From Lagopus muta (Eukaryota > Chordata > Aves > Galliformes > Phasianidae), in NCBI RefSeq assembly GCF_023343835.1, contig NC_064443.1:2666001-2730000 (forward strand): a stretch of 64,000 bases of DNA, read 5' to 3'. Numbering within the stretch: the stretch's first letter is position 1; each line of letters opens with the position of its first letter. Below are positions 1,307 through 29,357 of this stretch, in pieces. A program made the translations under genes and the position numbers. The notes beneath the pieces were generated by a model. It was given only the letters and a program-made list of their open reading frames with translations. It had not been told where the DNA came from and made no database searches.

Positions 1307-4300
1307 AAAAACGAATGGCTGTGTCTGAACTGCCAAACCCAGAGGCTGCTGGAAGGGAGCCTGGCAGACCCTGCCCCGATGCCGCTGCCTGCGCCAAAGC
1401 AACCCGTGAGCGGCTCCCCTCGGCACCAGCCGACAGCAGCCAGCCAGCGGGCACCGGTCCCTGCCGAGCCGGTGGCACCTCCCGAACGGCAGCCTTCCCC
1501 TGCCAGGAGCCTGCGGGCACCCGAACAGAGCAGGGTCCCCAGCCCTGCTCCGGAGAAGAAGCCACTGGTGCTAGCAGAGGAGAAGCCGCTGCCCAAAGCT
1601 GCTCCGGAGCCATCTGTCGCAGCGCCCAAGGGGAAGAGCGTCAGCCCCAAACTGGAGGGGGAGAGCAAGGAGGGACGTGCAGCCCCTGAAACGCAGAAGG
1701 CGAAGGAGCTGGAGGTGAGCTCTGCCCTTGTCCCCTTGGTCACTGTGTTCCATGTCACAGAGAGGCACTTTTCACACCCGCAGTCAAAGCACAGTGCTTC
1801 CCAAGAGTCCGAACCGCTCTGGATCTTCTGTTCGTAATGCAATAGCTCAGGTAGTCCTTGCCCCATTGGTTTTAAAGGGCAGTTGGAGTTCTCGTTAAAT
1901 GCAAAGCTAATTTTGAAACATTTCCAGCTTGCACTGCAGAAATGGGCATTCCCGAGCTCATTCTGTTTTTTTTTCCCTCTTTAACTCAGTGTGCTTTGGG
2001 GAAACAGCCCAACAGCACTGGGATGGTTGTGCCAGGGAGCCATCATGGCCCTTGGGGAGGGAGGCTGCTTGCACCCTGGTGGTCCCCAGTCCCATGGGGT
2101 CCATGGTACCCCTGCTCACAGGCTCTCAGGCACAGCCCCCACTGCTGAGTGTGACACTGAGTCTCATTGCAGTGCTGCCTCATTGTACTATCAATTAAAG
2201 CAATTCCTTTATTCCTGCTGGCGTCCAACGAGGATCCTGGGGACTGCCTTGCTTCTCCAGTGTCCTCTGCAGGGCTATCCATTGGAGAAATTAAATTGCC
2301 TTCAGAGGCTGCTGGCCTCACACTGCCTCCAGCCCAGCTGTGCCCTCCTCTGCTGCCAGTCTCTTGCTCCCTGCCCACACCCAGAGCCAGTGCTGTACTC
2401 CCAGTGCTGCCCGAGGCCAAGCTCCTGCCCCCTTCCCTAGGGATGTGCTCACAGCCATAAATATCCCAAGGGTTACAGTGAGGGCTCAGCCATTGCTGGG
2501 TCTCTTAGCAATAGAAAATTGAAGGTATTGCCATTATGCAGCCTTCTGGCATTTGCTGTCAGGTGGGGGGCGCTGGGGGGCGTCCCAGGGTCCCCTCCTG
2601 CTTGGGGCACTCACATACCCTAACTCCACACTCCCTCTCACCTGCAGGACGCGAGCAAGCCTTACCCCCCGGACCTGTCTCGCAGCCCCCAGAGTCTGAG
2701 TGACACTGGCTACTCCTCGGATGGCATCTCCAGCTCGCAGAGTGAGATCACGGGGCTGGTGCAGCAGGAGGAGGAGAAGCTGAGTGGCACTGGGCTGGCA
2801 GGGCAAAGTCCTCCCAGCCCCTCTGAGCTCACCAAGCTAGAGAGCAGCATGCGGCCACTGCTTGAGGCGCGGGGGGCCCCGGCAGAGACCGGCAAGGGCT
2901 CAGAGGCACGGGAGGAACAGCGGCAGCGGCAGCGGCCTCGGTATCTCTCCATCACCCCTGAAGCCTTTGACTCAGACGAGGAGCTGGAGGACATCTTGGA
3001 GGAGGATGAGGACTCGCTGGACTGGGAGAACCAGAGGGAGCAGCGGGAGAGCGTGGAGTCCTCGGACGAGTTCGGCAGCAAGCTGCGGCACGACTACGTG
3101 GAGGACAGCAGTGAGGGGGGCTTCTCCCCGGTGCCTGGACATCCCAAGGGCCGGGAGGAGGTGGCTGACGAGGAGTTCATGCGCAGGCAGATCCTGGAGA
3201 TGAGTGCAGAGGAGGACAACCTTGAGGAGGAGGAGGAGGAGGGCTACGGGCGCTCCAAGTGCAGTGCCCCCAAAGCCGAGGTGGAGAAAGGAAAAGAGCC
3301 TTCCTCAGCCAAGCGGCGCCTGCCGCATGGCCCCGGTGGCCTGTACAAGGAGGAGAGGAAGGAGCTGGAGGCAGCAGAAAGCGATGACATAAGCACAACC
3401 CAGGGAGGCCTGCGGCGCTTCAAGACCATTGAACTGAACAGCACCACCGGCTATGGCAGGGAGATGGAGGTGAGCCAGGAGGCTGACGCTGGGCTGGAGA
3501 GGGAGCCCGAACTGGAGATGGAGAGCCTGATGGGATCACCTGAGGAGCGATCCCGTGGTGAGTATTCATCCACCCTGCCGGCCACCACACCCAGCTACAC
3601 CTCGGGCACCTCACCCACCTCCATCTCCTCCCTGGAGGAGGACAGTGACAGCAGCCCCAGCCGGCGGCAGCGCCTGGAGGAGGTGAAGCAGCAGAGGAAG
3701 GCTCGGCACCGCTCACACGGTCCTTTGCTGCCTACCATTGAGGACTCATCAGAAGAGGAGGAGCTGCGGGAGGAAGAAGAGCTGCTGCGGGAGCAGGAGA
3801 AGATGCGGGAGGTGGAGCAGCAGCGCATCCGCAGCACGGCACGCAAGACCAAGCGTGACAAGGAGGAGCTGAGGGCGCAGCGGAGGAGGGAGCGCTCCAA
3901 AACCCCCCCCAGCAACCTGTCCCCCATCGAGGACGCCTCTCCTACTGAGGAGCTGCGGCAGGCGGCGGAGATGGAGGAGCTGCACCGCTCCTCCTGCTCT
4001 GAGTACTCGCCCTCCATCGACTCAGAGGCTGAGAGCTTTGATGCCGTGACCTCCAAGCTGTACAAGTCGGGCAGTGAGTACAACCTGCCAACCTTCATGT
4101 CACTGTACTCCCCCACAGAGAAGGTGGAGAATGTGCAGCCCACCAGCAAGCCCCTCAAGAGCGCCGAGGAAGCCTACGAGGAGATGATGAGGAAGGCAGA
4201 GATGATGCAGAAGCAGCAGGTCCAGCAGGCCCAGCAGGACATTTCCTATGGTGGTAGCACCTACCAGCAGGTTGGATACCGCAGCACCGAGGGGCAGAAT

Positions 4301-7300
4301 GGCTTCCAATACCAGTATGCGGACAAATACGGCTATGACAGTGGCCCCACACACCCCTCACAGCCCGACTATTCGAGTTCTCTGTCAAAGCCTGGTGCAG
4401 TGTACGAGGAGATCCTGCAGACTTCACAGAGCATTGCCAGGATGCACCAGTCCACCTCATTTGACCTGGCTCTGGAGAAGGGAGACAAGAAGAAAGGACA
4501 GGAGGAAGCGTACCAGGAGAAGCACTTTCTGAATGCTGAGAGTGCATATGCTGAGCTAATGAAGCAGAATGGGGGACCCCTCACACCCGGCACTAGCCCC
4601 ACGCAGCTCTCTGCTCCTGTCTCCTTTTCAACCTCTGAAGGCAGCAAGGCGGTTCCTGACGTCCGGGTAACACAGCATTTTGCCAAAGAGGGACAAGACC
4701 TGGCCAAGCTCCAGAGCACCCCAGCAGCACCCAGCCCAGCTCCCAAGCCCATCACAGCTCCTTACACCTACAGCAAAGGTACCAGCATGGTCACAACAGC
4801 GGTGGCCAGCCCCACCAGCACAACACGGATCTACAGCTCTGCAGAGGCTGCTTCCACACCTGCCAGGAGCTATGGCCCGTCAAAAAGCACCGTCAGCTAC
4901 GGCTCGCAGACAGAGGACATCACGCGAAGCAAGGTGGGGGTGGAGACCAGCGTGCAAATGGCGAGGGAGAAGCTCCAAGGGGTGAGTGATGGCAAGCCCC
5001 CACCAGCCAAGACGTACTCATTCTTCAAGAGCTCCAGCCCCCCGCTCTCGCCAACGTCTCCCACTCAGAGTCCCACTCGCGCTGCCCCCAGAGCTGCTGT
5101 GCCCTCTGGCCCCACTGCCAAGTCTACTGCTGAGTTCTCCACGCAGACGCAAAGTCCCCTCCTCGCCTACGATGTCCCCACCACCACCGGCCCCTCAGCC
5201 TCCTCCCCCATGGTGGCCCAGGGGACACAGACACCACATCAGGCAGGCTCGCCTCGCCTGACCCGGCAGCAGTCCTCACAGGATGCACCCTTCATGCTGA
5301 TCACACTAGCAGCCGATGCAGCCAGCCAGACCAAACCACCGAGCTCCTCTGCGTCCCCTGCTTCATCCCCCACCAGGATAAGCCGGCAGGTGATCACCCA
5401 CGGGTACGGTCAGGAGCCAGAGCAGCCGCTGGGCACATTCATCCGGGCACAGCATGTGAAGGACCCAGCCCAGAAGGTGCCCGTGACTTCAGGCCCCGAT
5501 GGCATCACGGGGCTGTATAGCTGGGGAGCACTGCCGGCAGAGAACATATCACTGTGCCGCATCTCCTCCATCCCCGGCACTTCCCGTGTGGAGCCAGGGC
5601 CCAAGGTGCCGAGCAGCAGCGCTGTGGACCTGCGCACTGCTCTGAAATCAGCTCCCATCATCATAACAGACCAAGGCATGGATCTCACCTCCTTGGCCAC
5701 CGAGGCCAGGAAGTACTGCCTAACCTTGGACCAGATCCCCAGCCGGCAGTCCACAGCCATCCAGCCCCTGATCATCAACCTCAATGCCCAGGAGCAGCCC
5801 CACGCCATCATCGCAGCCTCCAGCACCGCCGGCCTTGCCATCGCCTCCCCGATGCTCATCTCCCAGCCTAAGCAGCCCGTGGTCTACGGAGACCCCTTCC
5901 AGAGCCGGATGGACTTTGGGCAGGGGGCCGGCAGCCCGGTGTGTTTGGCACAGGTAAAGCAGGTAGAGCAGGGCGTTCAGACGGGTGCTGGCAGAGCCAG
6001 TGGGGCAGCTGGCCCTGCACCCACCAGCAAGCCCGAGCCACCGGCTTCTCCCCAGGCGAAGTTCTCCAGGTACAGTTTGCCCAGTCAAATGGTAAAGAAG
6101 GATGTGCTCATCACACAGACCAGTGTTGCGCATAGTGTCAGCGGCCTTCAACAGCCATTCCAGCAGGAGCAGGGCTCGGAGCTGTACCGTGCGGTGCCGG
6201 TGGAGCTGAAGACCCAGAGCCCTCTCCTTGCCCTGGGAGGCAAGAAGTCCCAGGTGATGATGGTGCAGGTGGAGGATGTGACAGCTGGCCCGGTGACCAA
6301 AGTGCTGAAGGAAGAGCCTCCAGCCAACGTGCTGGACCTCACAGGCGTGAAGGCGGAGAGTCAGGTGGCCTGCTGTGATGTGGTCTACAAGTTCCCTTTT
6401 GGCAGCAGCTGCACCGGTGCATTCAATCCCACCTCCAAGGTGCCAGAGAAGAAGGCTGCGGACACGGTCCCCAGCAGGAAGGCCAGTGGGCCCCTGTATG
6501 GCAGCAGGGAGCCAGAGCTGCCAGAGAGCTTCCCGTACCGGGAGCAGCCGGCACCTGCACTCTATGAGGAGCACAAATTCTACCCCACTGGTACCTTTGG
6601 GAGACTCTATTCCTCCATGTCGGACACCAACCTGTCAGAAATCGGCATGAACTACTACCCACTGAAGGGGGACCAACCCTTCCACGAGGCCGCGGTGGAC
6701 CTGAGCACCATGAAGCACTCCTACAGCATCGGCTTTGCTGAAGGTGGGTATCTGGGCCAAGGGCTGCAGTATGGCTCCTACTCTGACCTGCGCCAGCCCG
6801 CTGACCTGCTGGGCCACCCGCTCCCTATGAGAAGGTACAGCTCAGCCTCCAACATCTACTCCGACTACCGCTACTCACCCCGAGGGGACCTGGCCAGCTT
6901 CCAGGAGTCCAGCCTGGCCCACTACAGTGCTACGACTGCGCGTGAGATCAGCCGCATGTGTGCTGCACTCAACTCCATGGACCACCAGTATGGGGCCCGG
7001 CACGCCAATGGTCCCGACACACTGTCTTATGGCCCCGGCGGTAGGGGGCTGCCAGCCCAGCCAGGGGGCGCCGTGGCCCCAAAACCCAGCGGGATGTTCA
7101 ACCCGTCCGTCCCTGAGACACAGCAGGGCTTCGGCAGCCTGGCACAGTACAACGTGCCCGGCGTGCGCCTGGGTGCCGTCAGGCAGATGTTTGCATCCTC
7201 CGCCACCGTGCGGGCAGCCGATGGCATGATCTACTCTACCATCAACACACCCATCGCCTCCACGCTGCCCATCACCACCCAGCCAGCCTCCGTGCTACGA

Positions 7301-10300
7301 CCCATGCTGCGTGGGCTGTACCGGCCCTACGGCCCACCCGGCATGGCCGCTGTCCCGCTTGCCAGCCTGGCCAGGGTGCCTGTCGTTGCGCCGCGCGTCC
7401 CGCTGGCCCCACAAGGCCTCTACCGCTATCCAGCCCCCAGCCGCCTCCCGGCTTCCTCGATGATGGAGACACCCGTCTACCTAGGCAAGGCAGTCAGTGC
7501 TGCACCAGGCACAGGCCCCGCTGCCAAAGCCCCCACCACACCTGCCACTGGCATGCAGAGAGCAGAGGCGTCAGGAGCAGCGCCCTGCACCGAGCCTCCT
7601 GCAGCGGGCAGCAAGGAGGGTGGCCAGGCAGCCCCCGTGCCCAAACCAGCCTCCGAGAGCGTACAGCGGGAGGAGCGGGAGCGCGAGGAAGAGCGGCAGC
7701 GCAAGCAGCAGGAGCACGTGCTGCAGCTGGAGCGGGAGCGTGTGGAGCTGGAGAAGCTGCGGCAGCTGCGGCTGCAGGAAGAGCTGGAGCGGGAGCGCGC
7801 TGAGCTGCAGCGGCACCGGGAGAAGGAGCAGCTGCTGGTGCAGCGGGAGCTGCAGGAACTGCAGTGCATCAAGCAGCAAGTGCTGCAGCAGCAGCAGGAG
7901 GAGCGGCACGCGCAGCTGGCGCTGCAGCGGGAGCAGCTGGCCCAGCAGCGCCTGCAGCTCGAGCACATCCACCAGCTGCAGCACCAGTTGCAGCAGCAGC
8001 TGGAGGAGCAGAAGAGGCAGAAGACCATCTTCCCCCCCGCTGGTGCCGAACCCATCAGCCGTCCACCCGAGGGGCCTGCCGAGGTGCCACGGGGCCCAAT
8101 GCACAATGGACACGGCTGGACACCAGCCGGCCAGGCGCTGCCTGGGGGTCCCGAAACTGCCAGTGGCCCACGCTACCCTGCACCGCAGCGGCCGCTCAGC
8201 AGCTCAGCCTCGGACATGTCACTGCAGGCCGAGGAGTCCTGGGAGCCCGGACGGGGCATCAAGAAGAGGAACTCGATGCCGCGTCTGCGGGACGCCTATG
8301 AGAAGGAGACAGCGAGGAAGACAGCAGACAGCAGTGTGCAGACAGATGAGGAGGATGGCGAGGAGCGGTACATGCTGTCGCGGCGGCGGCGGTCACGGCG
8401 CAGCACCGACTGCAGCGTGCAGACAGATGAGGAGGACAGCGGAGAGTGGGAGCAGCCTGTGCGACGCCGGCGCTCGCGGCCCTCCCGGCACGCTGATGCC
8501 GGCACTGAGGGCAAGGCGGATGGCACAGCACGCGGCGTGGCCAGTGTTGGCATCCAGACCATTAGCGACTGCTCGGTGCAGACTGAGCCTGACCAGCTCC
8601 TCCGTGTCTCGCCCTCCATCCACATCACCACCCATGACCCTCGTGTGGAGATCATCAAGTACATCTCAGCGCCGGAGAAGACGCAGCGGGGCGAGAGCCT
8701 CGCCTGTCAGACAGAACCTGAGCCGCCTCCACAGCCCGGAATCGTGGTGCCCCAGCTCACGGTGCCCACCACCATCACCCCCTACTCCACCAACCTGCAG
8801 ATGGTCAGCACAGGGCCTCTGGACCCCCACGCTGTCCGGCAGCAGACCCTCGGCAAGTTTGAGAAGAAGAAGCCAGACCCTCTGGAGATCGGGTACCAGT
8901 CCCACCTGCCGGCCGACTCCCTCTCCCAGCTGGTGACCCGCCAGCCTCCCCGCTCCCCCCAGGTCCTCTACTCGCCCGTGTCCCCGCTGTCCCCACACCG
9001 CCTGCTGGAGTCTTCCTTCGCCACCAGTGAGCGGCTCAACAAGGCGCACGTCCCACCCCAGAAGCACTTCACAGACTCGGCCCAGCGCCAGCAGACGCTG
9101 CCACGTCCCATCAAAACCATGCAGCGCTCACTGTCCGACCCCAAGCCCATCAGCCCCACCTCTGAGGAGGCTGGCAAGGACAGGTTCTCTCTCTACCAGC
9201 ACTCACTGCTCCCAGGCACCCAGGTACGTGTGTGCGGGGTCATGCTCGGGCGCCCACCCCGGTGATGGCACTTTGTGTCCCAGCTCAGTGGACGTCTCAC
9301 CCTGATGGGCTCAGACGTGTCCTCACGCGGCATCCTTCCCTGTGTGTGCCTGGCCAGGCTGACCCGAGCTGAATCTTTTCTGGTGACATCTCACCACTGT
9401 GAGCAGGAGAGATGCAGTCACTCAACTCACTCTCGTCCTGCAATAAATAACCTTTCCTTTGGAGAGTGGCCCCAGGAGGCACCTCAGGCCATTTCAGTTT
9501 CATTAGTGCTGCAGCAATTAATATTTCAAAAGGTTGGCTCCCCGCAGCGGCTGATGGCAGCCTGCATGCATGGACACGTGGCCCTGCACCTCCGAGCAGG
9601 CAGCAGGCGGCTCCTCCAGGTCTGCAGGCACTCAGGGAGCCCTGGTGCTGCACAGCAGCACAGCATGACCATGGCAGGACCCTGGATATTCCCATCCCAC
9701 AGCGGGTGCCCTCCCTCTCCTGCACAGCTCAGTTTTGGGGTGCAGCAGCTCACACTCCCATCCGCAAACAGCCTCATTTTGCAGGTGGGGAAACTGAGGC
9801 ACGACCTGGCAAAACCCCTCCATACAAAGGGGAGAAGGGTAGACAGGTGATGGGTTGTCCAACATCCCCAAACACAACCTACATTTCGCAGGGTGCAGTG
9901 GGGGAACACAGCTCTGTGACAGCTTCCATCTCAGTGGGTCCCGTGCCATCGCCCCACTGCCAATTTTCCCAGCCCTGCTGGAGAGCATTGCAGGGGCTTG
10001 TGCAGCACTTAGCAGTGCTCCTCTGCTGGCATGCCAGCAGCCAGCCTGGCATTTGGCTTGCTGCCACTCGTGGTAATTATTCATAGAAAGTGCCCTGCCT
10101 GTTACTTCCATCCTATTTATTGTGCCTTTACATAAACGCTGCTTGCATGGGGCATGAGGGAACGTACGGGGCACTCAACCCTGGGGGGCTGGGGCCGCAC
10201 TGCTGACGGCCTCCTCTTGCCTTTGCAGGTGAGCACACTGCAGTCGAGCCCACTGGCACGCAAGGTGAAGCGCACTCTGCCCAGCCCACCGCCCGAGGAG

Positions 10301-13300
10301 CCCCACGTGGCCCTGGGCAGCCCGGCCACCCAACAGCTCTACCTGGGCAGCTTGGCCCCCAAGGCCCCTGCCGCAGCACCGGTCACCAAGGCCAGCCTGT
10401 TGAAGGAGCTGGACCGTGACCTGAAGCTGGTGGAGCACGAGTCGACCAAGCTTCGCAAGAAGCAGGCGGAGCTGGACGAGGAGGAAAAGGAGATTGACGC
10501 CAAGCTGAAGTACCTGGAGCTGGGCATCACGCAGCGCAAGGAGTCGCTGCTGAAGGACCGAGGGACGCGGGACCACCCCTACTTGCGCGGCCTGGCTGAC
10601 CGCCGCGACTACCTGTCCGACAGCGAGCTGCACAGCCTGCGCCTCGCCACCTATGACAGCGCCGGGCTGCGCCCCGCGCCTGCTGCCCAGTACCCCGACT
10701 TCACCGCCGCCTCCTATGCTGCATACCCCTATGCGGCCCCACCGGGGCTCCCCACCTTCCCTGCCACGCGCCCGCAACCGCCCCAATTCCCTGCTGCTAG
10801 CACCACGCAGGACGGCTTGCCACCTGCCCCACTGCCTGCCTTCGCCTCGCCCGCCGCCTTCCCGGCCCCTGGCACCGTGTACCCAGAGCTGAGTGCCCCC
10901 GACCAGCCAGGCTTCCGGCCCCAAAACCCCTACCAAGCCCAGGGCACCTTCCCCGGCACAGCCGGTGTGCCTGCAGCGCAGCCTGTGCTCTACCAGAGCC
11001 CGTCAGACGCACATCAGAAGCCACGGCAGACCTCGCTGGCCGAGCTGGAGCAGAAGATCCCCACCAACTACGAGGTCATAAGCGCGGCCACCAGCTCCTC
11101 TGCTGTCCCTGATGTCACCCTCGGTGCGGCGGCGGTGAGCAGCAGCTATGAGCAGTACAAGGCGCCCGAAGCCCGGCTGGCTGACAGAACCAGCGTCACG
11201 CAGGGCCCGTCAACCAGCTTCTCCTCTGAGTCCCTCTACACCAGCCTGGAGCAGAACATTCCCCGGAACTACGTGATGATTGAGGACATCAGCGAGCTCA
11301 CCAAGGAGAGCCCAGTGGTGGATGGGCAGAAAGTGGAGCCAGCGGGCACGGGCGCCAACGGCCGGCACAGCAAAGAGAAGAGCGAGATGCTGGATGGCGA
11401 GGGGTCCAGCCGGCCGTGCTGCTACAGCAAGGCAGAGGATGAATCCGAGGAGGACATCTATGACCACCACGGCCCTGACCATCGTGGGAAGAACAGCTAC
11501 CACCGGGAGAGCAACGGCAGGGTGTCGGGGAGCTCGGCGGGCTCCTACTACTACGGGGATAGCGAGTACCGGCACTCCTCACGGGCAGACAAGCACGGCT
11601 CTGGCACGGCGCTGCCAAAGCACTCATCCAAGAACCTGGCACCTGCCGTTGTCTCATCCAAGCGCAGCAAGCACAGGAAGCAGGGCATGGAGCAGAAGAT
11701 CTCAAAGTTCTCCCCCATTGAAGAAGCCAAAGACGTGGAGTCAGACTTGGCCTCCTACGCAGTGACAACATCGGTCAGCAGCAGCAACGTGGCCTCCCGG
11801 GCCAAGAAGCTGCAGGATGAGATCACCTACGGGCTCAAGAAGAACGTATATGAGCAGCAGAAGTACTACGGCGTGTCCAGCCGGGACCTGGTGGATGAGG
11901 AGGAGCGGGTCTACTCCAGCAGTGGCAGAACCCGCTCCTCCGCCTACGGGCTGGAGAAGTCTTCCGGTCGTGACGCAAGTGGTCGCAGCAAGTCCTTCGA
12001 GCGGGAGGCTGCGGAACGCTCCCAGAAGGGCGGCTCCAAGCCCTCATCCCTCGGCATGAGCCAGAGCCGGGGCCGGGCTCCGGTCCGCACGCAGCCCTCT
12101 GAGGAGGAAAGCCCCATCAGCCCCCTGGGCAAGTCGGTGGGGGGGTCGCGCTCCGTGGTCCCTCCGCAGTCTGCGGGGGACCCCTGCTCCCAGTTCTGCT
12201 CCAGCCACTCGTTGCCTGATGTGCAAGAGCACATCAAAGACGTGCCAAGGAACCACTTGTACAAGCACGAGGAGGGCTACGGCATGGACGATTCCCATTG
12301 CGTTGTCTCGGACAGCGAAGGTAACGGCTACCCGTGGTGGTGAGCACCCAGAGCATGGCGCTTCCCCGGGGCATGCTCGTCCGCAGAGACACTCACGGCC
12401 TCAGTTTGCTTGACACGTGCCTTCCTCCCCCCTTTCCAGTCCTTGTCTGGGTGTTCGGTGTTGGCCGGCGGCGCTCGCGCGGTGCCCCGTCCCATCCCTG
12501 CCGGCGCGGGCTGTCCCCTGTGTGTGTGACGAGCTGCTTGCCTTCTCCTGCCTCATTGCATGGCTTCAGCCCGGGCTGCGTTCCCGCCTGAGGAGCGAGA
12601 GATTGACTGTCGTTTGTTTTTGGTTTCTGAAGCCTATCATTTGGGTCAGGAGGAGACAGACTGGTTTGATAAGCCCAGGGAAGCGCGGTCAGAGAGGGTA
12701 AGGCACTACGGCGGCCACTCTTCCTCGCAGAAGAGACCCCCGGCTAAGCACACCTACCACGACTACGACGAGCCACCGGACGAGGACCCGTGGCAGCACG
12801 ATGACTATCCTCAGCACCGCGAGCACCGGCACCACGGCGACTACGGCCGCCACGCTGCCTCCTCCCGCCACGACGAGCAGCCGCGTCGCTCGGCCAAGCA
12901 GCACCAGCGGGAGTCCGGCCGCCACGAGCCCCGCGGCCACGCCACGCCGGCCGCCGCCAAGAAGGCACAGCAGCCAGAGCCCCGCGCCTCGGCACCGTAT
13001 GGCCCCGGCGCCTCTGAGTACGCGCCGCCGTCCCGCCACCACGGCGCCGAGCCCCAGAAGGCGCCCAAGGCTCCGCAGCCGCACGGGACGCCCTCCCCGG
13101 CGCAGAAAGCAGAGCCCTCGGTCCCCGCGCAGCAGGCGGCGGGCAGGCAGCCGCAGGCGGGGCAGCCGGCGGCGCGGCAGCAGCCTGCGGCGCGGCAGGG
13201 CGCTCAGCAGGCGGGCGCTGCGCAGCCCAGGGCGCAGGGAGCCGCCGCGGCCCGGCCGGCACAGCAGCAGCCGGGGACGGGCCAGCCCGCGGGGAAGGCG

Positions 13301-14205
13301 GCGGCTACGCTGCACGCACAGCCGGGAGGACACCCAGCGCCGCAGGTGAGCCCGCATCTGCTGCGTCTGCTTGCTGTGGCTGGGGAAGGGCTGGGGACCG
13401 GGGCATGTGCCGCGCCAGGTGCCCGTGGGAAGGGCCATCCCTGTGCCCCTGACTCTTGGGGTGTGGAGTCTTGCTCCCACTGTACTTCGGGGTCGTTCCT
13501 GTGAAGCAAAGTGCAGACACTGCCACAGCGAGCCCCGTGCCACCTCCCACCCAGGGGGCCGGTGCCGAAGGATGCTCTGCCATCCCCTCCAGGAGGGCAA
13601 GAGCTGACAGGCATCTTCTGCCTTGCAGCTGAAATCAGAGCAGACGGACACGGCCAAACCCGCAGCAAAAGTGCCGCAGCAGCCTGGGAGAGCGCCTGCA
13701 GCTCAGCCCCCCGGAGCAGCAGGTCAGTGCATGATAGTCAGCAACCAGAACTCCGGTGCTGGCTGCCTGAGGGTCATCCCGTGGGACCCACCTTTGCTGA
13801 CTTCCACCTTGTTTGTCCCCCAGCAGACAGCAAGACTGGTCCGAGGGTGGCCGGGACACGTGGCCCCACCGGCCCAGCCATGGGGCAGCCTGGGGCGGAG
13901 GGAGAAAGCGTCTTCTCCAAAATCCTGCCGGGAGGGGCAGCTGAGCAAGCAGGCAAACTGACTGAAGGTGAGGGCTGCCTCCACGTCCCTGCGGTGAGAT
14001 GGAGTTGGGTGGCACAGGGGTGGCTGGAAGCCTCTGCCAGGATGCACTGCTCCCACAGCCAGGGATGTGTAAGCGTTAAAGTCTGATGGCTTTGACCTGG
14101 GGACCGTGGGCACAGGGGTGCAGTGGGATGTGGCCGTCCTCATGCCTCTCCCGCTTCCCCACAGCGGTGTCGGCTTTCGGCAAGAAATTCACTTCGTTCT
14201 GGTGA
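1307..14205 (+). CDS. BSN: Bassoon, presynaptic active-zone scaffold (3' part, 7 coding exons)
   Basis: Bassoon is a giant cytomatrix protein that organises synaptic vesicle release sites. Coding exons are 1307-1714, 2648-9223, 10229-12320, 12633-13345, 13629-13722, 13824-13967 and 14165-14205. They sum to 10068 nt (3355 codons plus stop) with matching phases 0, 0, 1, 0, 1, 1. Human Bassoon is about 3926 aa, so roughly the first 570 residues lie upstream of the window. The first exon opens with KNEWLCLNCQTQRLLEG, the end of the second FYVE-like zinc finger. The protein ends AVSAFGKKFTSFW, almost the human C-terminus. Three coiled-coil stretches and nine QT motifs are visible between. The giant exon and the 2.1 kb exon match the human gene architecture. 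The gene is 5'-truncated only by the window edge and no disruption was seen. Identification is by remembered family sequence and is very secure. Confidence 0.97.
1715..2647 (+). other. BSN: BSN intron
   Basis: The 933-bp intron runs between the donor gtgagc and the acceptor cctgcag, phase 0. No repeat, RNA gene or second promoter was recognised in it. Confidence 0.8.
2648..9223 (+). CDS. BSN: BSN giant exon
   Basis: This single exon of 6576 nt (2192 codons, phase 0 at both ends) follows cctgcag and is closed by the donor gtacgtg. It opens with DASKPYPPDLSRSPQSLSD. It contains acidic segments such as DSDEELEDILEEDEDS, the first coiled coil near 3745-3905, and SMSDTNLSEIGMNYY-type serine/tyrosine blocks. 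The long Gln/Glu/Arg coiled coil lies at 7666-8030. Conserved islands, for example EEAYEEMMRKAE, LPAENISLCRISS, YSATTAREISRMCAALNS and ADGMIYSTINTPIA, alternate with low-complexity Pro/Ser/Thr linkers. That pattern is typical of an extended scaffold with short interaction motifs. Reading frames on the other strand and in other phases are composition artefacts. Confidence 0.97.
7666..8030 (+). other. BSN: Bassoon central coiled-coil segment
   Basis: About 120 residues are almost entirely Glu, Arg, Gln and Leu, with heptad-like spacing (LERERVELEKLRQLRLQEE, then ELERERAELQRHREKEQLL). The DNA is CAG/GAG-rich but the encoded repeats are imperfect, so this is a protein-level constraint rather than a simple microsatellite. 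It corresponds to the second of the three coiled coils described for Bassoon. The role in self-association or partner binding comes from family knowledge. Confidence 0.8.
8329..8720 (+). other. BSN: Cluster of QT motifs, dynein-light-chain-like sites
   Basis: Five short motifs fall in about 130 codons: SSVQTDEED, CSVQTDEED, VGIQTIS, CSVQTEPD and ACQTEPE. They fit the [S/T/V/I]-Q-T-[D/E] core recognised by dynein light chains (DYNLL). Bassoon is known to bind DYNLL through other sites farther upstream. Four more QT motifs lie upstream here, near 4903 (SQTED), 5140 (TQTQ), 5222 (TQTP) and 5974 (VQTG). Binding by this C-terminal cluster is inferred from motif shape only. Confidence 0.55.
9224..10228 (+). 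other. BSN: BSN intron
   Basis: The 1005-bp intron runs from donor gtacgtg to acceptor ctttgcag. It has moderate GC content and includes an ATTA/TATTTCAAAA-like AT-rich patch near 9515-9535. Nothing else was recognised. Confidence 0.8.
10229..12320 (+). CDS. BSN: BSN penultimate large exon with third coiled coil
   Basis: The 2092-nt exon begins right after ctttgcag and ends GACAGCGAAG before gtaacg. The split codon joins to the next exon (12633) to read SDSEAYHLGQEE, as in mammals. Near 10390-10560 it encodes a charged helix (LLKELDRDLKLVEHESTKL, then KKQAELDEEEKEIDAK), which is the coiled coil reported to bind CAST/ELKS and Piccolo. Farther on are SKRSKHRKQGMEQKISKFS and EITYGLKKNVYEQQKYYG, both highly conserved blocks. 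The exon's first six bases, GTGAGC, look like a splice donor placed directly after the acceptor. The frame shows they are coding (Val-Ser). Confidence 0.96.
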
Positions 14206-16463: not shown

Positions 16464-19400
16464 ATGGAGCCGCTGGTGAGGGGCTGAGAGGGGACGGGTT
16501 GGGGGCTTGGGGGGGCGGTGACGTCACTGCCCCGGGACCCCCGCCCTCCATCACCTTCCCCCCGACCGGTGCTTCCCCCGTACCCCGAATTCTGCCCTTC
16601 CCCGGGTGTCCCCGTACCCCATAGCCGCCGCCGCGGGACCTTCCTGTCCTCCTGACGCCTGGGACCCCTACCCCCCCCCATGCCCTGGTACCACTCAGCA
16701 GCCTCCCCGTCCCCTGGTACCCCAATCACAGCCCCCCCCGTGCCCTGGTACCCCAATCACAGCCCCCCCCGTGCCCTGGTACCCCAATCACAGCCCCCCC
16801 CGTCCCCTGGTACCCCAATCACAGCCCCCCCCGTGCCCTGGTACCCCAATCACAGCCCCCCCCGTGCCCTGGTACCCCATTCACAGCCCCCTCGTGCACC
16901 AGTTCCCTTCATAGAACCCCCCCAGCCCTCATAATTCCTCCGTGTCCCCTTATTCCTTGCTAAGAGCTGAGTGCCCCCATAGAAGCCTCTCCCGACCTGC
17001 CCTTTGCCCCCCTCCTCGTTCTCCCGCAGGTGCTGCCCAGCGCTGAGGAGGCTGCAGCGCTGTACCAGGAGCTGAGCCAGAACCCTGGCATCAGCACCGC
17101 CTGCCTGGGTCCCGATGTCACCACGCAGTACGGGGGCAAGTACTGCAGCCTGTACACCGGTATGGCGTGGGCCCTGGGCGAGGGGGGCAGAGGGGTCTTC
17201 GCTTCTCCTCACCCTCATCCCCGCAGAGTGGTCGCAGCGGGACCTGGTACAGGCCAAGAGCATCAAGTTCTGCCGGCAGTACCTGCTCTTCCACGACGGG
17301 GCCTCCATCGTCTATGCAGGGCCTGGCGGTGCCTGCTGTGAGATCAATAATGAGTGCGTCCTTGTGTCCCTACCTCCCCACATCCCCACGTCCCTGGCAG
17401 CACGGAGCTGATGAACAGCCTTCCCACAGGTTGCTGAGCTGCGAGTCCCCCAGCGGTGCATTGAAGGCTGTCCTGCTCAAAGTTGCCGGCAAGGAGAAGG
17501 AGAAGGAGAAAGAGAAGCAGTTCCTGGAGGTGAGTGAGGGGCCAGAGGGTTACAGAAAGGAAGGGACTGGCAACTTGGGCTCCTCCTGCCCCTCTGCTCC
17601 CAGGTGTGGTATCAGAACCGTAAGGTGAAAAGCATCGACCTGACGGCGTTGGATAAGCATGGCAGCGTCTATGATGACGGTGAGGGATGGGATGGCCCTG
17701 GGGGATGCTGGGGACAGGACAGTTTGTGCCAGATCTCTCCCCACAGACCAGTTTGGCTGCCTGGTCTGGTCGCACTCAGAGACCCACCTGCTGTATGTGG
17801 CGGAGAAGAAGCGTCCCAAGGCTGAGTCCTTCTTCCAGACCAAAGCACCCGAGCTGGATGGCTCTGCTGATGAGGAGCTGGAGTGCCCCAAGAAGACAGA
17901 TGCACCCATCAAGGTGGGTCCCCACCACCCCCAGGGGTGATGTCCCTCCACCCCAGAGCTGGCACTAACGGGACTGTGCTACAGGGAGAGCAGTTTGTGT
18001 ACTATGAGAACTGGGGGGAGACACTGAGCACCCGCAGCGTCCCTGTGCTCTGCGTGCTGGACATCGAGGGCAGCAGCATCTCAGTGCTGGAGGGCGTCCC
18101 CAAACACGTGTCCCCTGGACAGGTCAGGATGGGGAAAGGGGACACGGGAGGTGGTGGACATTGGGAGACTTTGTTACTGAGCCACACGGTCCACTGCTCA
18201 CAGGCCTTCTGGTCCCCAGATGACACTGGGGTGGTGTTTGTGGGCTGGTGGCATGAGCCCTTCCGCCTGGGGCTGCGGCACTGCACCAACCGCCGGTGAG
18301 TCCCCCTGGTCCCCACCACCCTGAGGACCCCAGCCCTGTGGTGACAGCTCCTCTCTCCCGGCAGCTCAGCGCTTTTCTACGTGGACCTGACCGGAGGGAA
18401 ATGCGGTGAGCAGCTCACCTTCACACCTGCAGTGCTGAGCGCCGTGCAGCCCCTCACCACCCGCTTGTGACCTTGCAGAGCTGCTCTCTGAGGACACTGG
18501 GGCCCTGTGGTCCCCACGGCTCAGCCCTGACTGCTGCCACATCGCCTACCTAGAAAACAGGGTGCTGGGCCCCCACCAGCAGTGCAGCCGCCTCCGCATG
18601 GTGAGCGGCTCTGCTCCCCCACCTGGGGGGGCTGGTGCTGTACCCCTACCTTAGTGAGCTGCCTGAGTGCACCTGACACAGCCTCCCACCCCACGTCTCC
18701 CACAGTACAATTGGCGTACCAAGCAGACCTGCACTGTGCTGGAGGCTGTGCCGCGGCAAGTGTGGGGTGAGTGTAGCCCTGTGGGGCAGGTTTTGAGTCA
18801 TGGGGCAGGTCTTGGGGCAAGGTGAGGTGTTGAGCACCGATACTTTCATTACAGGTGCCTTCCCTGGGATCTACTGCACCGCTCTGCCAAGGCTGTGCTG
18901 GGCAGCCGACAGCCGTCGGCTCGTACTGGACACGTCCCAGCGCAGTCAGCAGGTAAGGACTGCAGGGCCTGGGGGCACACAGAGCAGTTGTTCTGGTGCT
19001 GAGCTGGACTCTGCCCTTCTGTCCTCAGGATGTGTTTGTGGTGGACACGCAAACAGGCAGCACAACCTCGCTGACAGCTGGTGAGTGCCACGGTGCCAGG
19101 GTTGGGACAGGTTGGCCTGCAGCTCTGACCCTCTCTGTCCTCCCCAGATGCACCCCAAGGGAGCTGGTCTGTCCTCACCATTGACCGGGATCTCTTGGTG
19201 GCCCAGTTCTCCACCCCAAGCTGCCCCGCGACGTTGGTATGGTGACATCCCTGTCCCCAGTGCCCCCCTGCCCTCTGGGTGCTGGTGCTGACACTTCTCT
19301 CTATGCAGCAAGTGGCTGTCCTGCCTGGTATGGGCCAGGAGGCACAGATAAAGTGGATATGCCTGCAAAATGCATCCCCAGTGCCTGGCATCAATTGGGG

Positions 19401-20744
19401 CATCCGCACCCTGAAACCCCCACCAGATCAGGAAAACCCCCAGTATGGTGAGTGCTGGGGGCAGCGCTGCTGTCGCTCATCCCCACGGAGCCCTGATTGC
19501 TTATGCCCTCCCCACAGAGGGGCTGGACTTTGATGCCATCCTGCTGCGCCCAAGTGAGGGTCCCACTGTCCAGAAGCCCCCTTTGGTTGTGATGCCCCAC
19601 GGTGAGAGCTCGCCCCCCCCTCCCACTGCCCAGCGCCAGCCCCGGCCCTGCAGTGTCACTCCCACTACCTCTGCCCCACAGGGGGACCCCACACTGTTTT
19701 CTCTGCTGGGTGGATGCTGTACCCAGCCACGCTGTGCCGCCTGGGCTTTGCTGTGCTTCTGGGTGAGTGTTGGGGCAGATGGGGCGCAACACCTTCACAG
19801 TTCCCCTGGGGTTCTGCAGCAGGAGGCTCTGACACCTTCTCTCCCAGTGAATTATCGTGGCTCACTGGGCTTCGGCCAGGACAGCGTGAACTCCCTGCCA
19901 GGCAATGTGGGCTCACAGGATGTGCGGGATGTGCAGGTAGGATGCGTGTGCCCTATCGTCCTGTGGGTGTCCTGGGTTGGAAACCTGGGCACAGTCACGT
20001 CCCCACTTCAACAACTGTCCCTGGTGCTTACAGTTCTGTGTGGAGCAAGTGCTGCAGGAGGAGCAGCTGGATGCCAGCCGAGTGGCCCTGGTGGGTGGCT
20101 CACATGGGGGCTTCCTGTCATGCCACCTCATCGGGCAGTTCCCCGATACCTACCGTGCCTGCGTGGTCCGCAACCCCGTGGTGAACATCGCCTCCTTGCT
20201 CACCGTCACTGACATTCCTGACTGGTGAGTGCTGCAGCCCCCCGCTTCCCTCAGCCCTGGCACCGCATGTCCCCCTGCCTCTCACCCGCAGGTGCCTGAC
20301 GGAGATGGGAGTACCCTACGTGCCCAATAACCTCCCAGACTCAGCCCACTTGACAGTGATGCTGCAGAAGTCACCCATGTCCTACATCAATCAGGTACAT
20401 CCCTGTCCCGTCCCATCCCCTGTACCGGCCTGCAGCACTGCAGCTGAGTCTGTGCCCTTCCTGCAGGTCCGCACGCCTGTACTGCTGATGCTGGGGGAGG
20501 ACGACAAGCGCGTTCCCCCCGTGCAGGGGCTGGAGTATTACCGTGCCTTGAAGGCCCGTGGCGTGCCCACACGGTGAGTGGGATGCAGGCACTGGGATGT
20601 GGGCTGTGGGCGCAGCGCTGAGCCCTCTCTCCCTGCAGGTTGCTCTGGTACCCCAAGAACAACCACGCGCTGGCCGGCGTCGAGGCCGAAGCCGACAGCT
20701 TCATGAACATCGTGCTGTGGCTGCTCCAGCACCTGCAGGGCTGA
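16464..20744 (+). CDS. APEH: Acylaminoacyl-peptide hydrolase (copy 1), 22 exons
   Basis: Cytosolic prolyl-oligopeptidase-family serine peptidase that releases N-acylated amino acids from blocked peptides. Exons: 16464-16475, 17030-17159, 17227-17353, 17430-17529, 17604-17679, 17747-17913, 17985-18122, 18204-18295, 18365-18405, 18479-18600, 18706-18766, 18855-18952, 19029-19080, 19148-19236, 19309-19447, 19518-19601, 19682-19762, 19848-19936, 20034-20224, 20292-20394, 20467-20573 and 20639-20744. They total 2205 nt, 734 aa (human 732). An N-terminal beta-propeller precedes the alpha/beta-hydrolase domain. The triad is Ser589 (GGSHGGF), Asp677 (GEDDKRVP) and His709 (NNHAL), each offset by two from human 587/675/707. 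The HGGPH oxyanion-side motif is present. The first exon holds only four codons. Residues near 17490-17520 form a Lys-Glu repeat absent from human. All splice junctions are GT-AG. Confidence 0.96.
16681..16890. repeat. 31-bp tandem repeat in APEH intron 1
   Basis: Seven copies of a unit built on TGCCCTGGTACCCCAATCAC followed by AGCCCCCCC start at 16681, 16710, 16741, 16772, 16803, 16834 and 16865. The spacing is 29 bp and then exactly 31 bp, and the inner copies are nearly identical. Each unit has a GGTACC palindrome and a C-run of 7-8. It lies in the first intron just downstream of the promoter. Confidence 0.92.
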
Positions 20745-20768
20745 GAGCCCCCGGCACCATCACCCCCC

Positions 20769-20774
20769 AATAAA
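20769..20774 (+). terminator. APEH: APEH poly(A) signal
   Basis: AATAAA lies 25 bp after the APEH stop codon, giving a very short 3' UTR. It is followed by a GT-rich stretch (atgttgttgagc) suitable as a downstream element. The next gene's start codon is only about 200 bp further on. Confidence 0.8.
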
Positions 20775-20975
20775 TGTTGTTGAGCACTTGGACTCTCTGC
20801 GGTGGTTCTGTGGTTGGCCTCCGCTGCCCCTGGGGCTCGTGACCGCAGGCGGAGGTTGGGCACAGCTTGCTGCCAGCTCCCAGCACCCTTCCTGGCTCTG
20901 GCCCCGGCGGGCTGCTCGCGCACCCTGGCACCCTGCCCACGCTGAGCCACGGCCGGCTGAGCACGGAGCAGCCCC
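20775..20975 (+). promoter_or_regulatory. Intergenic gap and likely promoter of the APEH-like gene
   Basis: About 200 bp separates the APEH poly(A) signal from the first ATG of the second copy. It is GC-rich (ggccccggcgggctgctcgcg) and has no TATA box. Either a compact promoter lies here or the second gene relies partly on transcription from the first. No clear CCAAT box was seen. Confidence 0.4.
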
Positions 20976-23900
20976 ATGGCCTCGGGGACGCAGCGGGGCG
21001 CGGGGAGCTGGGGGCAACCGGCTGAGGGGCAGCGGAGCAGCCCTGGTGCCTGCTACAGGGAGCTGAGCCGCTTCCCTGCCGTCAGCTGTGCCGCGCTGGG
21101 GGCCACCGCGGGGGGACGGGGACAGGGACAGGGACAGGCCTTCCTGCTGCACACCGGTGAGTCAGGCCCCGCGGCCCCGCTGCGCTGTGCCCGGGCTGGT
21201 GCTGACATCCCCGTCCTGCAGAGTGCCGGCAGCCCGACCTGCCCCGCCGGCGGCTCCTGCGCTTCAGCCGCCACTACAGCGTTCAGCGCACGGAGCGCGG
21301 CCTCGCCATCAGCCAGGCTGCGCTCAGCACGGAGATCCACAACCGGTACGGCTCGTGGCCAGCCTGTGCGACGGGGCGGCGCGGGGCGTTCTGTTCTGTA
21401 CCCTCCACGGCTCCCTGCCGCTTGCAGGCTGCTCGGCCAGGATTCACCCTCGGGGCAGCGCCGCGCCGTGCTTGTCCGCAGCCCACCGCAGGGCCACGAG
21501 CTGCTGGAGGTAATGCGGTGCCGGGGGCGCGCCGGGGAGCCGGGTGCAATGGGCACGGTGCAACCGGTGAACCTGCTTCACCCAGGTGTGGGATGGCAGC
21601 GGGCGCAGCCACTGCGTGGATCTGACAGCGCTGGGGAAGCACGGGGCGGTCTACACAGAGGGTAAGGACCCCTCCCCAAATCCTCCTCTGCACGGCTGAG
21701 GGTGGCAAAGCCGCGGTGCCCAGCTGCCACTGCACCGTGGAGCGCTTTGGCAGCCTGTGCCTGCGGCAGGGCCATTTGCCTGCCTGGCCTGGTCCCATTT
21801 GGAGACGCAGCTGCTCTATGTGGCTGAGAGGAGCCAGCCAGGGCATGTGCCAGGGGCAGCCGGGCCAGCAGAGGATGAGGATGAGGAGGTGGGTGGTGAG
21901 TATGTGAGTATACACTGCACATAGTGAGCGTGCCGTGCACCCCGTGAGCATGCCATGTGTCCTGTGAGCATGCCCCACAAATGGTGAGCGTGCCTTGATT
22001 CCTGTGAGTGTGCCAGATGGGCAGTGAGTGTGCCATGTGCACACTGAGCGTGCCATGCTCCCTGTGAGCATGCTGCAGGGTGAGCAGTTCGTGTACCACG
22101 AGGGCTGGGGAGAGAAGCTGAGCACTTGCAGTGCCCCTGTGCTCTGCATACTGGATATCAGGACCAGCAGTGTCTCAGTGCTGGAAAGTGTCCCTGAGCA
22201 CGTGTCCCCTGGCCAGGTCAGTACTGGGAGGTAGGTGGGGCAGCTGTGGGATCAGGCTGAGGCCCAGACCTGAGCCTGGCTGTCCTACAGGCATTGTGGT
22301 CCCCAGGTGACACTGGTGTGGTGTTTGTGGGCTGGTGGCACGAGCCCTTCCGCCTGGGGCTGAGTGCTTGCTCCAACAGGAGGTGAGCCCCAGTGCCTTC
22401 CATGCCTACTCACTGCCTGCATGGCACAGGCATGGAGCTCTGACCCAAGCGTTCCTCCTCCCCAGGTCGGGTGTTTTCCACCTGGAGCTGGCCAGCGGGC
22501 ATTGCAGTGAGCACTGGGACACAGAGCACCGTGGGCTCCTTGCTGTCCCCAGGCACTGACCCACTGCCCGCAGAGCTGCTGTCTGCCCCTAACCGTGCCT
22601 CCTTCTCACCCCGGCTGAGCCCGGATGGTCAGCGCCTGCTCTACTTGGAAGGGGCCGTGGGAGGGCCCCACCGGCAGTGTCTGCAGCTGCGCCTGGTGAG
22701 CAGGATCCTGCACGCTGGGCCACCTGTCCCACACTGGGCAGGTCCCCAAAGTCTGTTTTGGTCTCCGAATCCCCGTGCCTCAGTTTCCCCTTTGGGCTCG
22801 GCTCCCCCCAGCTCACCTGGCAGACGCGGCAGACGGTGACGGTGCTCGACGTGGTGCAAGAGCCCACGGGCAGTGAGAGCTGTAAGGCTGGGTGCTGCTG
22901 GGGGATCGGACCATCACACCGAGTGCCACCACCCCAACTCCTCAACGCTCCCTCCCACTCACAGCCTTCACTGGAATCTACACCGATGCGCTGCCGCTGC
23001 AGTGCTGGGCAGCTGACAGCCGGCGGGCGCTGCTGTGCACCCCACAGCGGAGCCGCACGGTGAGCTGGGGCATGGGGACAGGGCACAGCCATGGCACAGC
23101 CCCCGTGTGACGCTGTCCCCACACAGGACTTGCTGCTGGTGGACACAGAAACTTCCACCATCACCAACCTCACTGCTGGTACGTGGCACCCGGCTGCTCG
23201 CGTCACTTTGGTGAGCAGGATGAGCAGTGGGAACTGTGAGCGTGCCACTGTCCCCAGGGTCACCAGAGGGGTGCTGGGAGCTGCTGACCATCCAGTGGGA
23301 CCTGCTGGTGGCCACCTGCTCAGCCCCACACTGCCCACCCAGCCTGGTGAGCAGAGCACCATGCAGTACTGGCACCATGCGAGGTGCTGGTGATACCCCA
23401 CTATGGAATAGGAGTACCTGATGCCACCTGCTGCCTGTCCCCAGGTGATGGCAGAGCTGCCACCATTGGGCCAGGAGCTGCCCCTGCATTGGGTTCCAGT
23501 GGAGGACACCCCACCAGTTCCTGGCATCACCTGGAAAACGCTGACAGTCCAGCAAAACTCTGCTCCACACAGTGAGTATGTGGGGGCCCAGCAGTGCTTG
23601 AGTGCACAGGGTTGTCTGTGGCACTGGGTGCTGAGTGGGGCCCCTCCAAGGTGCAGGTCCCCAGACCTTCGAGGCCCTGCTGCTGAGCCCAACAGGCGGC
23701 ACCACTCCGCACCCCCTCGTTGTGTGTCCCCACGGTGAGTGAGGGCCAGGGGGACATCCTGATGGTGCTGGTGGCACTCAGGTAACATCCCCGCTATGCC
23801 CAGGCGGCCCTCACGCCGTCTTCGATGCCCGCTGGCGCCCAAGCATGGCTGCGCTGTGTCAGCTGGGCTTCGCCGTGCTGCTGGGTGAGTGATGGGGACT

Positions 23901-25260
23901 TCAGTGCTGCATGTCCCCTGTGCCACACCGGGATGTGGCCTCCACCATCCCCATCTCTGCAGTGAATTACCGTGGCTCACTGGGCTTTGGGCAGGCAAGC
24001 ATTGAGTGCCTGCAGTCCCGTGTGGGTGAGCAGGATGTGGCTGACACACAGGTGAGGAGCAGCAAACAGGTGCTGATGGTGGGGGTGCTGATGGTGGGGG
24101 TGCTGATGGTGGGGTGCTGATGGTGGGGTGCTGATGGTGGGGTGCTGATGGTGGGGTGCTGACGGTGGGGGTGCTGACGGTGGGGGTGCTGATGGTGGGG
24201 GTGCTGATGGTGGGGGTGCTGATGGTGGGGTGCTGATGGTGGGGTGCTGACGGTGGGGGTGCTGATGGTGGGGGTGCTGATGGTGGGGTGCTGATGGTGG
24301 GGTGCTGACGGTGGGGGTGCTGATGGTGGGGTGCTGATGGTGGGGGTGCTGATGGTGGGGTGCTGATGGTGGGGGTGCTGACGGTGGGGGTGCTGGTGGT
24401 GGGGGTGCTGACGGTGGGGTGCTGATGGTGGGGTGCTGACGGTGGGGTGCTGACGGTGGGGTGCTGATGGTGGGGGTGCTGATGGTGGGGAGCCCATGCC
24501 CACAGCTGGCAGTGGAGCAGGCGCTGCGCTATGAGCCCCTCGACCCGCACCGCGTGGCACTGCTAGCCGGCTCCCACGGAGCCTTCATTGCCCTCCACCT
24601 CCTCACCCGTCAGCCTGAGCGCTACCGGGCGTGCGCCCTGCGCAACCCTGTCTCCAACCTTCCTGCATTGCTGGGCACATCTGACATCCCCGATTGGTGA
24701 GAGCCACCCATCCCACCCCGTGCCATCCCGCACCACGCTGTGCCGTGTCACCCACCACTGCCTCCCTCCTGCAGGCGCTACGCATCCCTGGGGCTGCCCT
24801 ACTCCTTCCAGCGGGTGCCCCGTGTGGAGGACCTGGTTGTCATGCTGCAGCGCTCACCCATCATCCAGGCAGCCCAGGTATGGTGCGGTGGGATGGGTGC
24901 AGGGGTGCAGGGGCAGGAACCAGGTGCTCACCACCATCTGTGTCACAGGTGCGGGCACCAGTGCTGCTATGTGTGGGTGCCCGGGACCGGCGTGTCAGCC
25001 CCACGCAGGCGCTGGAGCTGTACCGAGTGCTGCGGGCCTGCGGGGTGCCAACCCGGTGAGTGCAGCGTGGAGCTGGGGTTAAGTGGGCATGGAACCCTGC
25101 AGCGCTGGCTAAGCATCTCCTGCCCTGCAGGCTGTTGTGGTACCCTGAGGGTGGCCATGCACTGACCGGCGTGGAGACAGAAGCCGATGTTTTTGGGAAC
25201 TGCGCCCGCTGGCTCCTCCAGCACTTGGGGCAGCTCCCAGTGGAACAGCACAGCCCCTAA
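20976..25260 (+). CDS. APEH-like tandem paralogue, 21 exons
   Basis: A second, complete acylaminoacyl-peptide-hydrolase-like gene. Exons: 20976-21156, 21222-21345, 21428-21509, 21586-21661, 21770-21888, 22079-22216, 22291-22382, 22466-22506, 22574-22695, 22812-22881, 22965-23059, 23127-23178, 23258-23346, 23445-23571, 23657-23734, 23804-23884, 23963-24051, 24506-24696, 24775-24877, 24949-25055 and 25131-25260. They total 2187 nt, 728 aa. Twelve exon lengths equal those of copy 1 (76, 138, 92, 41, 122, 52, 89, 81, 89, 191, 103, 107), proving tandem duplication. The triad is kept: Ser575 (AGSHGAF), Asp663 (GARDRRV) and His695 (EGGHAL). The N-terminal part is divergent: exon 1 is Gly/Gln-rich, copy 1's tiny first exon has no counterpart, and the KRPKAESFF segment is replaced by an acidic EDEDEE stretch. 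The start codon is the least certain point. An active enzyme with altered specificity is the simplest inference. Confidence 0.88.
21897..22078. repeat. 20-bp tandem array carrying GTGAG in each unit
   Basis: Units of exactly 20 bp run through the intron after exon 5 of the APEH-like gene. GTGAG (once CTGAG) occurs at 21924, 21944, 21964, 21984, 22004, 22024, 22044 and 22064, with the common form GTGAGCGTGCCATG. The array runs to the acceptor of exon 6 (ctgcag at 22073-22078). Exon 6 itself begins GGTGAGCAG, which resembles a unit. Confidence 0.9.
24070..24490. repeat. G-rich 15/16-bp minisatellite, about 27 units
   Basis: Units GTGCTGATGGTGGGG or the same with a fifth G repeat for about 421 bp inside the intron between exons 17 and 18 of the APEH-like gene. 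Variants differ mainly at GAT/GAC and at the G-run length (4 or 5), and the variants are interspersed rather than sorted. Copy 1's equivalent intron is only about 97 bp and lacks the array, so it arose after duplication. Runs of G every 15-16 bp make G-quadruplex formation plausible. Confidence 0.95.
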
Positions 25261-25380: not shown

Positions 25381-25386
25381 AATAAA
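25381..25386 (+). terminator. APEH-like poly(A) signal
   Basis: AATAAA lies about 120 bp after the stop codon at 25260, followed by GTGTGATG. It lies about 75 bp from the oppositely oriented MST1 signal. Confidence 0.75.

Positions 25387-25508: not shown

Positions 25509-29357
<3,849 letters not shown>

Follow-up and report, generated by a model that had tools for sequence, protein, structure and literature searches.

A diverged second acylpeptide hydrolase gene lies in tandem with APEH in Lagopus muta and is probably the bird APEH-2

Two APEH-type genes at one locus

Two complete genes of the acylpeptide hydrolase (APEH) type, rebuilt here from sequence, lie head to tail on the same (+) strand of a 64-kb stretch of the Lagopus muta genome (the window; C14:2666001-2730000, in an assembly of 1,026,658,476 bases and 165 contigs). 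The features on which the argument draws are as follows, in coordinates of the window.

16464..20744, + strand: copy A, APEH of the APEH-1 type; 22 coding exons with GT-AG junctions, 2205 nt with the stop, 734 amino acids
20769..20774, + strand: AATAAA signal of copy A
20745..20975, + strand: gap of 231 bases between the coding parts of A and B, adjoining a CpG-richer stretch that lies mostly within the first exons of B
20976..25260, + strand: copy B, an APEH-like gene that is probably APEH-2; coding sequence in 21 exons, 2178 nt with the stop, 725 amino acids in the model
21770..21888, + strand: exon 5 of copy B, with a shortened gatekeeper loop, 119 nt against 167 in A
22079..22382, + strand: exons 6-7 of copy B with their intron, homologous to exons 7-8 of A (17985-18295); synonymous identity with A in excess
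24506..24696, + strand: exon 18 of copy B, with Ser572 in AGSHGAF (GGSHGGF in A) and Asp609
24949..25055, + strand: exon 20 of copy B, with catalytic Asp660 and Arg662
25131..25260, + strand: last exon of copy B, with catalytic His692 and the stop
25381..25386, + strand: AATAAA signal of copy B

Copy A matches pig APEH (7px8) with 1117 bits and copy B with 676 bits. Both Pfam domains of the family, the APEH_N propeller and Peptidase_S9, are matched in A and again in B, the latter with scores of 95.6 and 89.3 bits against cut-offs of 23.1 and 22.6, respectively. An earlier note on this DNA, made by a model from the letters alone, had described two complete genes in head-to-tail order, and the rebuilt models agree, with open frames and every internal junction GT-AG. 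The twelve equal-length exons of that note, in the same order, become 13 of 21 pairs, the remaining eight differing by multiples of three, and the intron phase is identical in all 20 introns common to the two copies. Its frame length for A (2205 nt) stands; that for B (2187 nt) exceeds our model by 9 nt. The catalytic triad and HGGPH motif that it reported in B are indeed kept, the triad being numbered Ser572, Asp660 and His692 here instead of Ser575, Asp663 and His695, which means that the earlier model of B has three extra codons before the serine. Exon 1 of B corresponds to exons 1 and 2 of A, and the first intron of A, in which a 31-base tandem repeat runs for 7.2 copies (16672-16891), has no equivalent in B.

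The B model is least secure at its start codon and at the end of exon 5. The ATG at 20976 is a plausible start, with an in-frame stop at 20958 and no further in-frame ATG between the two; for exon 5, an alternative in-phase donor lies 15 bases downstream of the modelled end. Beside that end, in intron 5 of B, a degenerate 20-base repeat of 7.5 copies (21924-22073) carries many donor-like GTGAG motifs. Most of intron 17 of B is occupied by a minisatellite (24069-24490) of about 29 copies of a 14-15-base unit, which contributes to a spurious open frame of 657 amino acids on the minus strand (22589-24562). The observed-to-expected CpG ratio, in bins of 300 bases, reaches 0.69 at 21000 and 0.81 at 21300; it is 0.58 over 20750-21250, compared with 0.34 in the body of B and 0.96 at the start of A. 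This composition suggests that a separate promoter for copy B at the gap or the CpG-richer stretch is possible.

On the 3′ side of B, convergent with it on the minus strand (26543-28182), two frames contain kringles and trypsin is matched weakly, at 22.6 bits for a cut-off of 20.6; together we take these to be an MST1-like gene. The mammalian gene order is BSN, APEH, MST1, and by analogy BSN would be expected upstream of copy A; three long open frames at 2624-13501 gave no Pfam match. A search of the bird's own genome with Peptidase_S9 returned 12 exon matches. Eight loci were compared with APEH, and among these only that of the window (L006) is APEH-like, apart from a weak 36-residue match in L002, so that no third APEH was seen among the eight, in a search that, from the pair in the window itself, listed a single exon of A and nothing of B and can thus miss such genes.

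Divergence of the two copies

Copies A and B are identical at 369 of 704 aligned residues (52.4%). A shares 474 of 727 residues with pig APEH (65.2%) and B shares 337 of 699 (48.2%). In the 699 ungapped columns that align A, B and pig, 296 are identical throughout, 161 are unique to B, 71 to pig and 41 to A, and in 130 all three differ. B is the diverged copy, with about fourfold more unique changes than A, a figure that compares rates only provided that pig truly branches outside the pair. The weaker similarity in the N-terminal half and better similarity around the active site described in the earlier note hold in direction, with a smaller contrast than it implied (50.3% before pig residue 466 against 55.9% in the hydrolase part).

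In 19 of the 20 intron pairs (all but the one with the long minisatellite), A and B are hardly more alike than shuffled sequence (mean z of 1.0), whereas identity is still 53-87% in the 19 exon pairs measured; introns that can no longer be aligned beside exons that are kept indicate that selection has held the exons. With almost no intron similarity left, a recent duplication is ruled out, as the earlier note had maintained. Between the copies, the NG86 method gives a dN of 0.437, a dS of 1.055 and a ratio of about 0.42 (0.35-0.51 over 200 bootstrap replicates), so that the dN/dS that the note had wished to see estimated is not near 1; the LWL85 method gives 0.468 and 0.962 for dN and dS. Synonymous divergence is near saturation, as YN00 returned no estimate and maximum likelihood an unusable dS of 27. 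The pattern is one of purifying selection, averaged over A and B. Of the note's central claim, an old tandem duplication with both copies functional, the age and the constraint on both frames therefore survive, and the function of B, in which two glycines of the nucleophile turn have become alanine, is a matter of inference.

A second bird APEH already in print

The note had further presented B as a lineage-specific enzyme, which fails as stated. According to the available text of a 2015 study (PMC4422685), all organisms analysed have a single APEH except teleosts and Gallus gallus, which have two, and its cluster 2 groups teleost APEH-2 with that of two birds, Gallus gallus and Taeniopygia guttata. 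A second bird APEH has thus been known in print since 2015. The APEH-2 of these two birds (cluster C2) is, in that text, a second enzyme besides APEH-1, and is probably the gene of copy B or its orthologue; in A and B, the genome of Lagopus muta likewise holds a second APEH beside a C1-like one, which is one of the marks of APEH-2.

We consider it likely that copy A encodes the ordinary acylpeptide hydrolase of the cytosol and that copy B, a protein-coding paralogue under constraint that arose by an old tandem duplication and has been kept adjacent, is most likely bird APEH-2. If the grouping in the available text of PMC4422685 is right, B would be an old vertebrate paralogue that is missing from the other vertebrates sampled.

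Age and origin of the duplication

A different origin, which we hold to be less probable than not while giving it real weight, is a duplication in birds or sauropsids independent of the teleosts, the published joint cluster being an artefact of fast-evolving sequences; it is compatible with the identification of B proposed above. At least 536 prokaryotic relatives were confirmed, of which the best 80 were kept and 75 used, five being removed for a stop or a length below 215 residues. Searched with the full-length alignment, genome and viral contigs yielded no relative. Rooted with the 75 outgroups (from the best 80 of at least 536), the unconstrained tree of the hydrolase domain joins A with B, as an independent duplication predicts, with a support of only 54%. 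However, the AU test retains all three topologies (P = 0.52 for A+B, 0.38 for A+pig and 0.54 for B+pig), the likelihood in that run being marginally highest for B+pig and not A+B, and sites polarized by the outgroups favour A+pig at four, B+pig at two and A+B at one.

Synonymous sites carry a similarly divided message. At fourfold sites in codons of the same prefix, A and B are identical at 113 of 216, above the 93.4 expected from codon usage (s.d. 5.7; P = 0.0006) when the third bases of B are permuted within codon families, an excess that would favour the independent duplication. Yet much of it sits in exons 7-8, without which identity falls to 88 of 184 against 78.2 expected (P = 0.045). 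Near-saturation of the synonymous sites outside these two exons fits an old duplication. The clustering of bird and teleost APEH-2 in the available text of PMC4422685 also speaks against independence.

A possible conversion tract in exons 7-8

Across exons 7-8 (numbering of A) and their intervening intron, a BLAST match runs at 75.2% over 331 columns. In these exons, a region picked post hoc from that match, 25 of 32 fourfold sites are identical against 17.2 expected (P = 0.0004), and no other group of exons is significant (16 of 36 against 13.8 in exons 2-6, 29 of 62 against 24.9 in exons 9-15, and 43 of 86 against 39.6 in exons 16-22). Sites at which A and B agree against pig, compared with those at which A and pig agree against B, number 9 to 5 in exon 7 and 62 to 156 elsewhere (Fisher P = 0.013, again post hoc); the intron between exons 7 and 8 is unremarkable (z of 1.4). 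There was no sign of wholesale conversion; windows of 25 codons with a shared residue are unclustered (permutation P = 0.28). The excess may mark an old gene-conversion tract, a post hoc hint for part of which constraint could account. It is possibly new: the titles and opening lines of abstracts among the matches listed mention neither the tandem layout, nor the altered nucleophile turn, nor a conversion in birds, which is weak evidence of absence as subscription journals lie largely outside their range.

The active site of copy B and its entrance

The available text of PMC12514842 assigns catalytic and substrate-binding roles in pig APEH to Ser587, His588, Asp675, His707, the loop 508-511, Pro506, Arg677 and Asp624. 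B shares the two-domain architecture of this enzyme (PDB 7px8) by sequence, together with the catalytic and S2-site residues checked: in pig numbering it keeps Pro506, 507-511, Ser587, His588, Asp624, Asp675, Arg677 and His707. The S2-site pair Arg677/Asp624 is Arg662/Asp609 in B, the triad Ser572, Asp660 and His692 stands in order, and the HGGPH oxyanion loop spans 492-496. B differs from the pig enzyme in its lower identity (48%, against 65% for A), in shorter entrance loops and in the alanines that replace Gly585 and Gly590, positions that are glycine in 75 of 75 prokaryotic rows (from the best 80 of at least 536 relatives). The strict GGSxGG signature, with glycine at Ser-2, Ser-1, Ser+2 and Ser+3, is broken in the AGSHGAF of B at Ser-2 and Ser+3, the other two glycines being kept. 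This lowers the expectation that B works as a standard APEH, and leaves untouched its filing by Pfam profile, which does not need the signature.

The two replacements imply that the activity of B may be reduced; a retained triad, oxyanion loop and Arg/Asp pair make decay unlikely. We infer from these residues that B is enzymatically active. That B is instead constrained yet catalytically weak or inactive, such as a modifying partner within the APEH tetramer, seems unlikely to us: the loss of both turn glycines and the greater divergence of B than of A would be in keeping with such a role, but the triad, the oxyanion loop and the equivalents of Arg677 and Asp624 are all present, and alanine at the first turn position need not abolish activity. 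Some active α/β hydrolases, such as Bacillus lipases, have alanine there.

In the pig tetramer, the segments 110-115 and 182-192 are described as gatekeepers in the available text of PMC12514842. Over pig residues 105-120, B has 12 residues, A 18 and pig 16, and over 170-205 B has 21 (26 with the later exon 5 donor), A 37 and pig 36. The entrance loops of B thus look shortened, an appearance that depends in part on the modelled end of exon 5. The net charge of the hydrolase domain is -6 in A, -7 in pig and +1 in B. The shift is uneven, the sequence stretches with the oxyanion loop, Ser, Asp624 and Asp675 being less negative or positive, and that with His707 more negative.

Constraint on copy B

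As a pairwise dN/dS averages both copies, it is the undamaged frame and splice sites of B that argue for constraint on B itself. Were B neutral, either the frame or some splice site would be gone, with 95% probability, by a distance of 0.012-0.016 substitutions per site, if the indel ratio is taken as 0.1 or 0.05. A young, recently decaying pseudogene, to which the greater divergence of B than of A might point, is therefore very improbable, as codons, splice sites and frame are undamaged across 2178 nt and, under those ratios, neutrality beyond that distance is excluded at the 5% level, a limit of some 6-8 million years at a substitution rate of 2e-9 per site per year.

Proposed function of the second copy

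For copy B as bird APEH-2, we propose the following. The protein would fold as a propeller over an α/β hydrolase, and Ser572-His692-Asp660 would cut N-acylated residues from peptides, with the alanines of the nucleophile turn probably altering rate or specificity. The shortened entrance loops and the less acidic hydrolase domain may allow B to take larger or oxidized protein substrates, in the manner of fish APEH-2. The available text of PMC4422685 offers the closest comparison: the APEH-2 of the teleosts Trematomus bernacchii and Chionodraco hamatus is a second APEH with the triad kept, like B, and reportedly has a broader substrate range. Models of the fish enzymes revealed no clear structural difference between the two beyond charge near the triad, which in fish APEH-2 is reportedly surrounded by positive charges; B, too, has a less acidic hydrolase domain, with the more negative His707 stretch as an exception. 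The fish enzymes were assayed for exopeptidase and oxidized-protein activity.

A bolder reading, which we regard as rather improbable as a whole, gives birds a full second APEH with a rebuilt AGSHGA turn and an entrance opened by loop loss, a dedicated endohydrolase of oxidized proteins that mammals lack, with part of the propeller still similar in A and B through old conversion of exons 7-8.

To our knowledge, mammals have one APEH, and work on mammals treats it as a single gene. The structurally altered bird copy would offer a natural contrast for the roles of the entrance loops and of the nucleophile turn. It also raises the question of whether nucleated red cells possess a special enzyme against oxidized protein, as the available text of PMC4422685 proposes for Antarctic fish.
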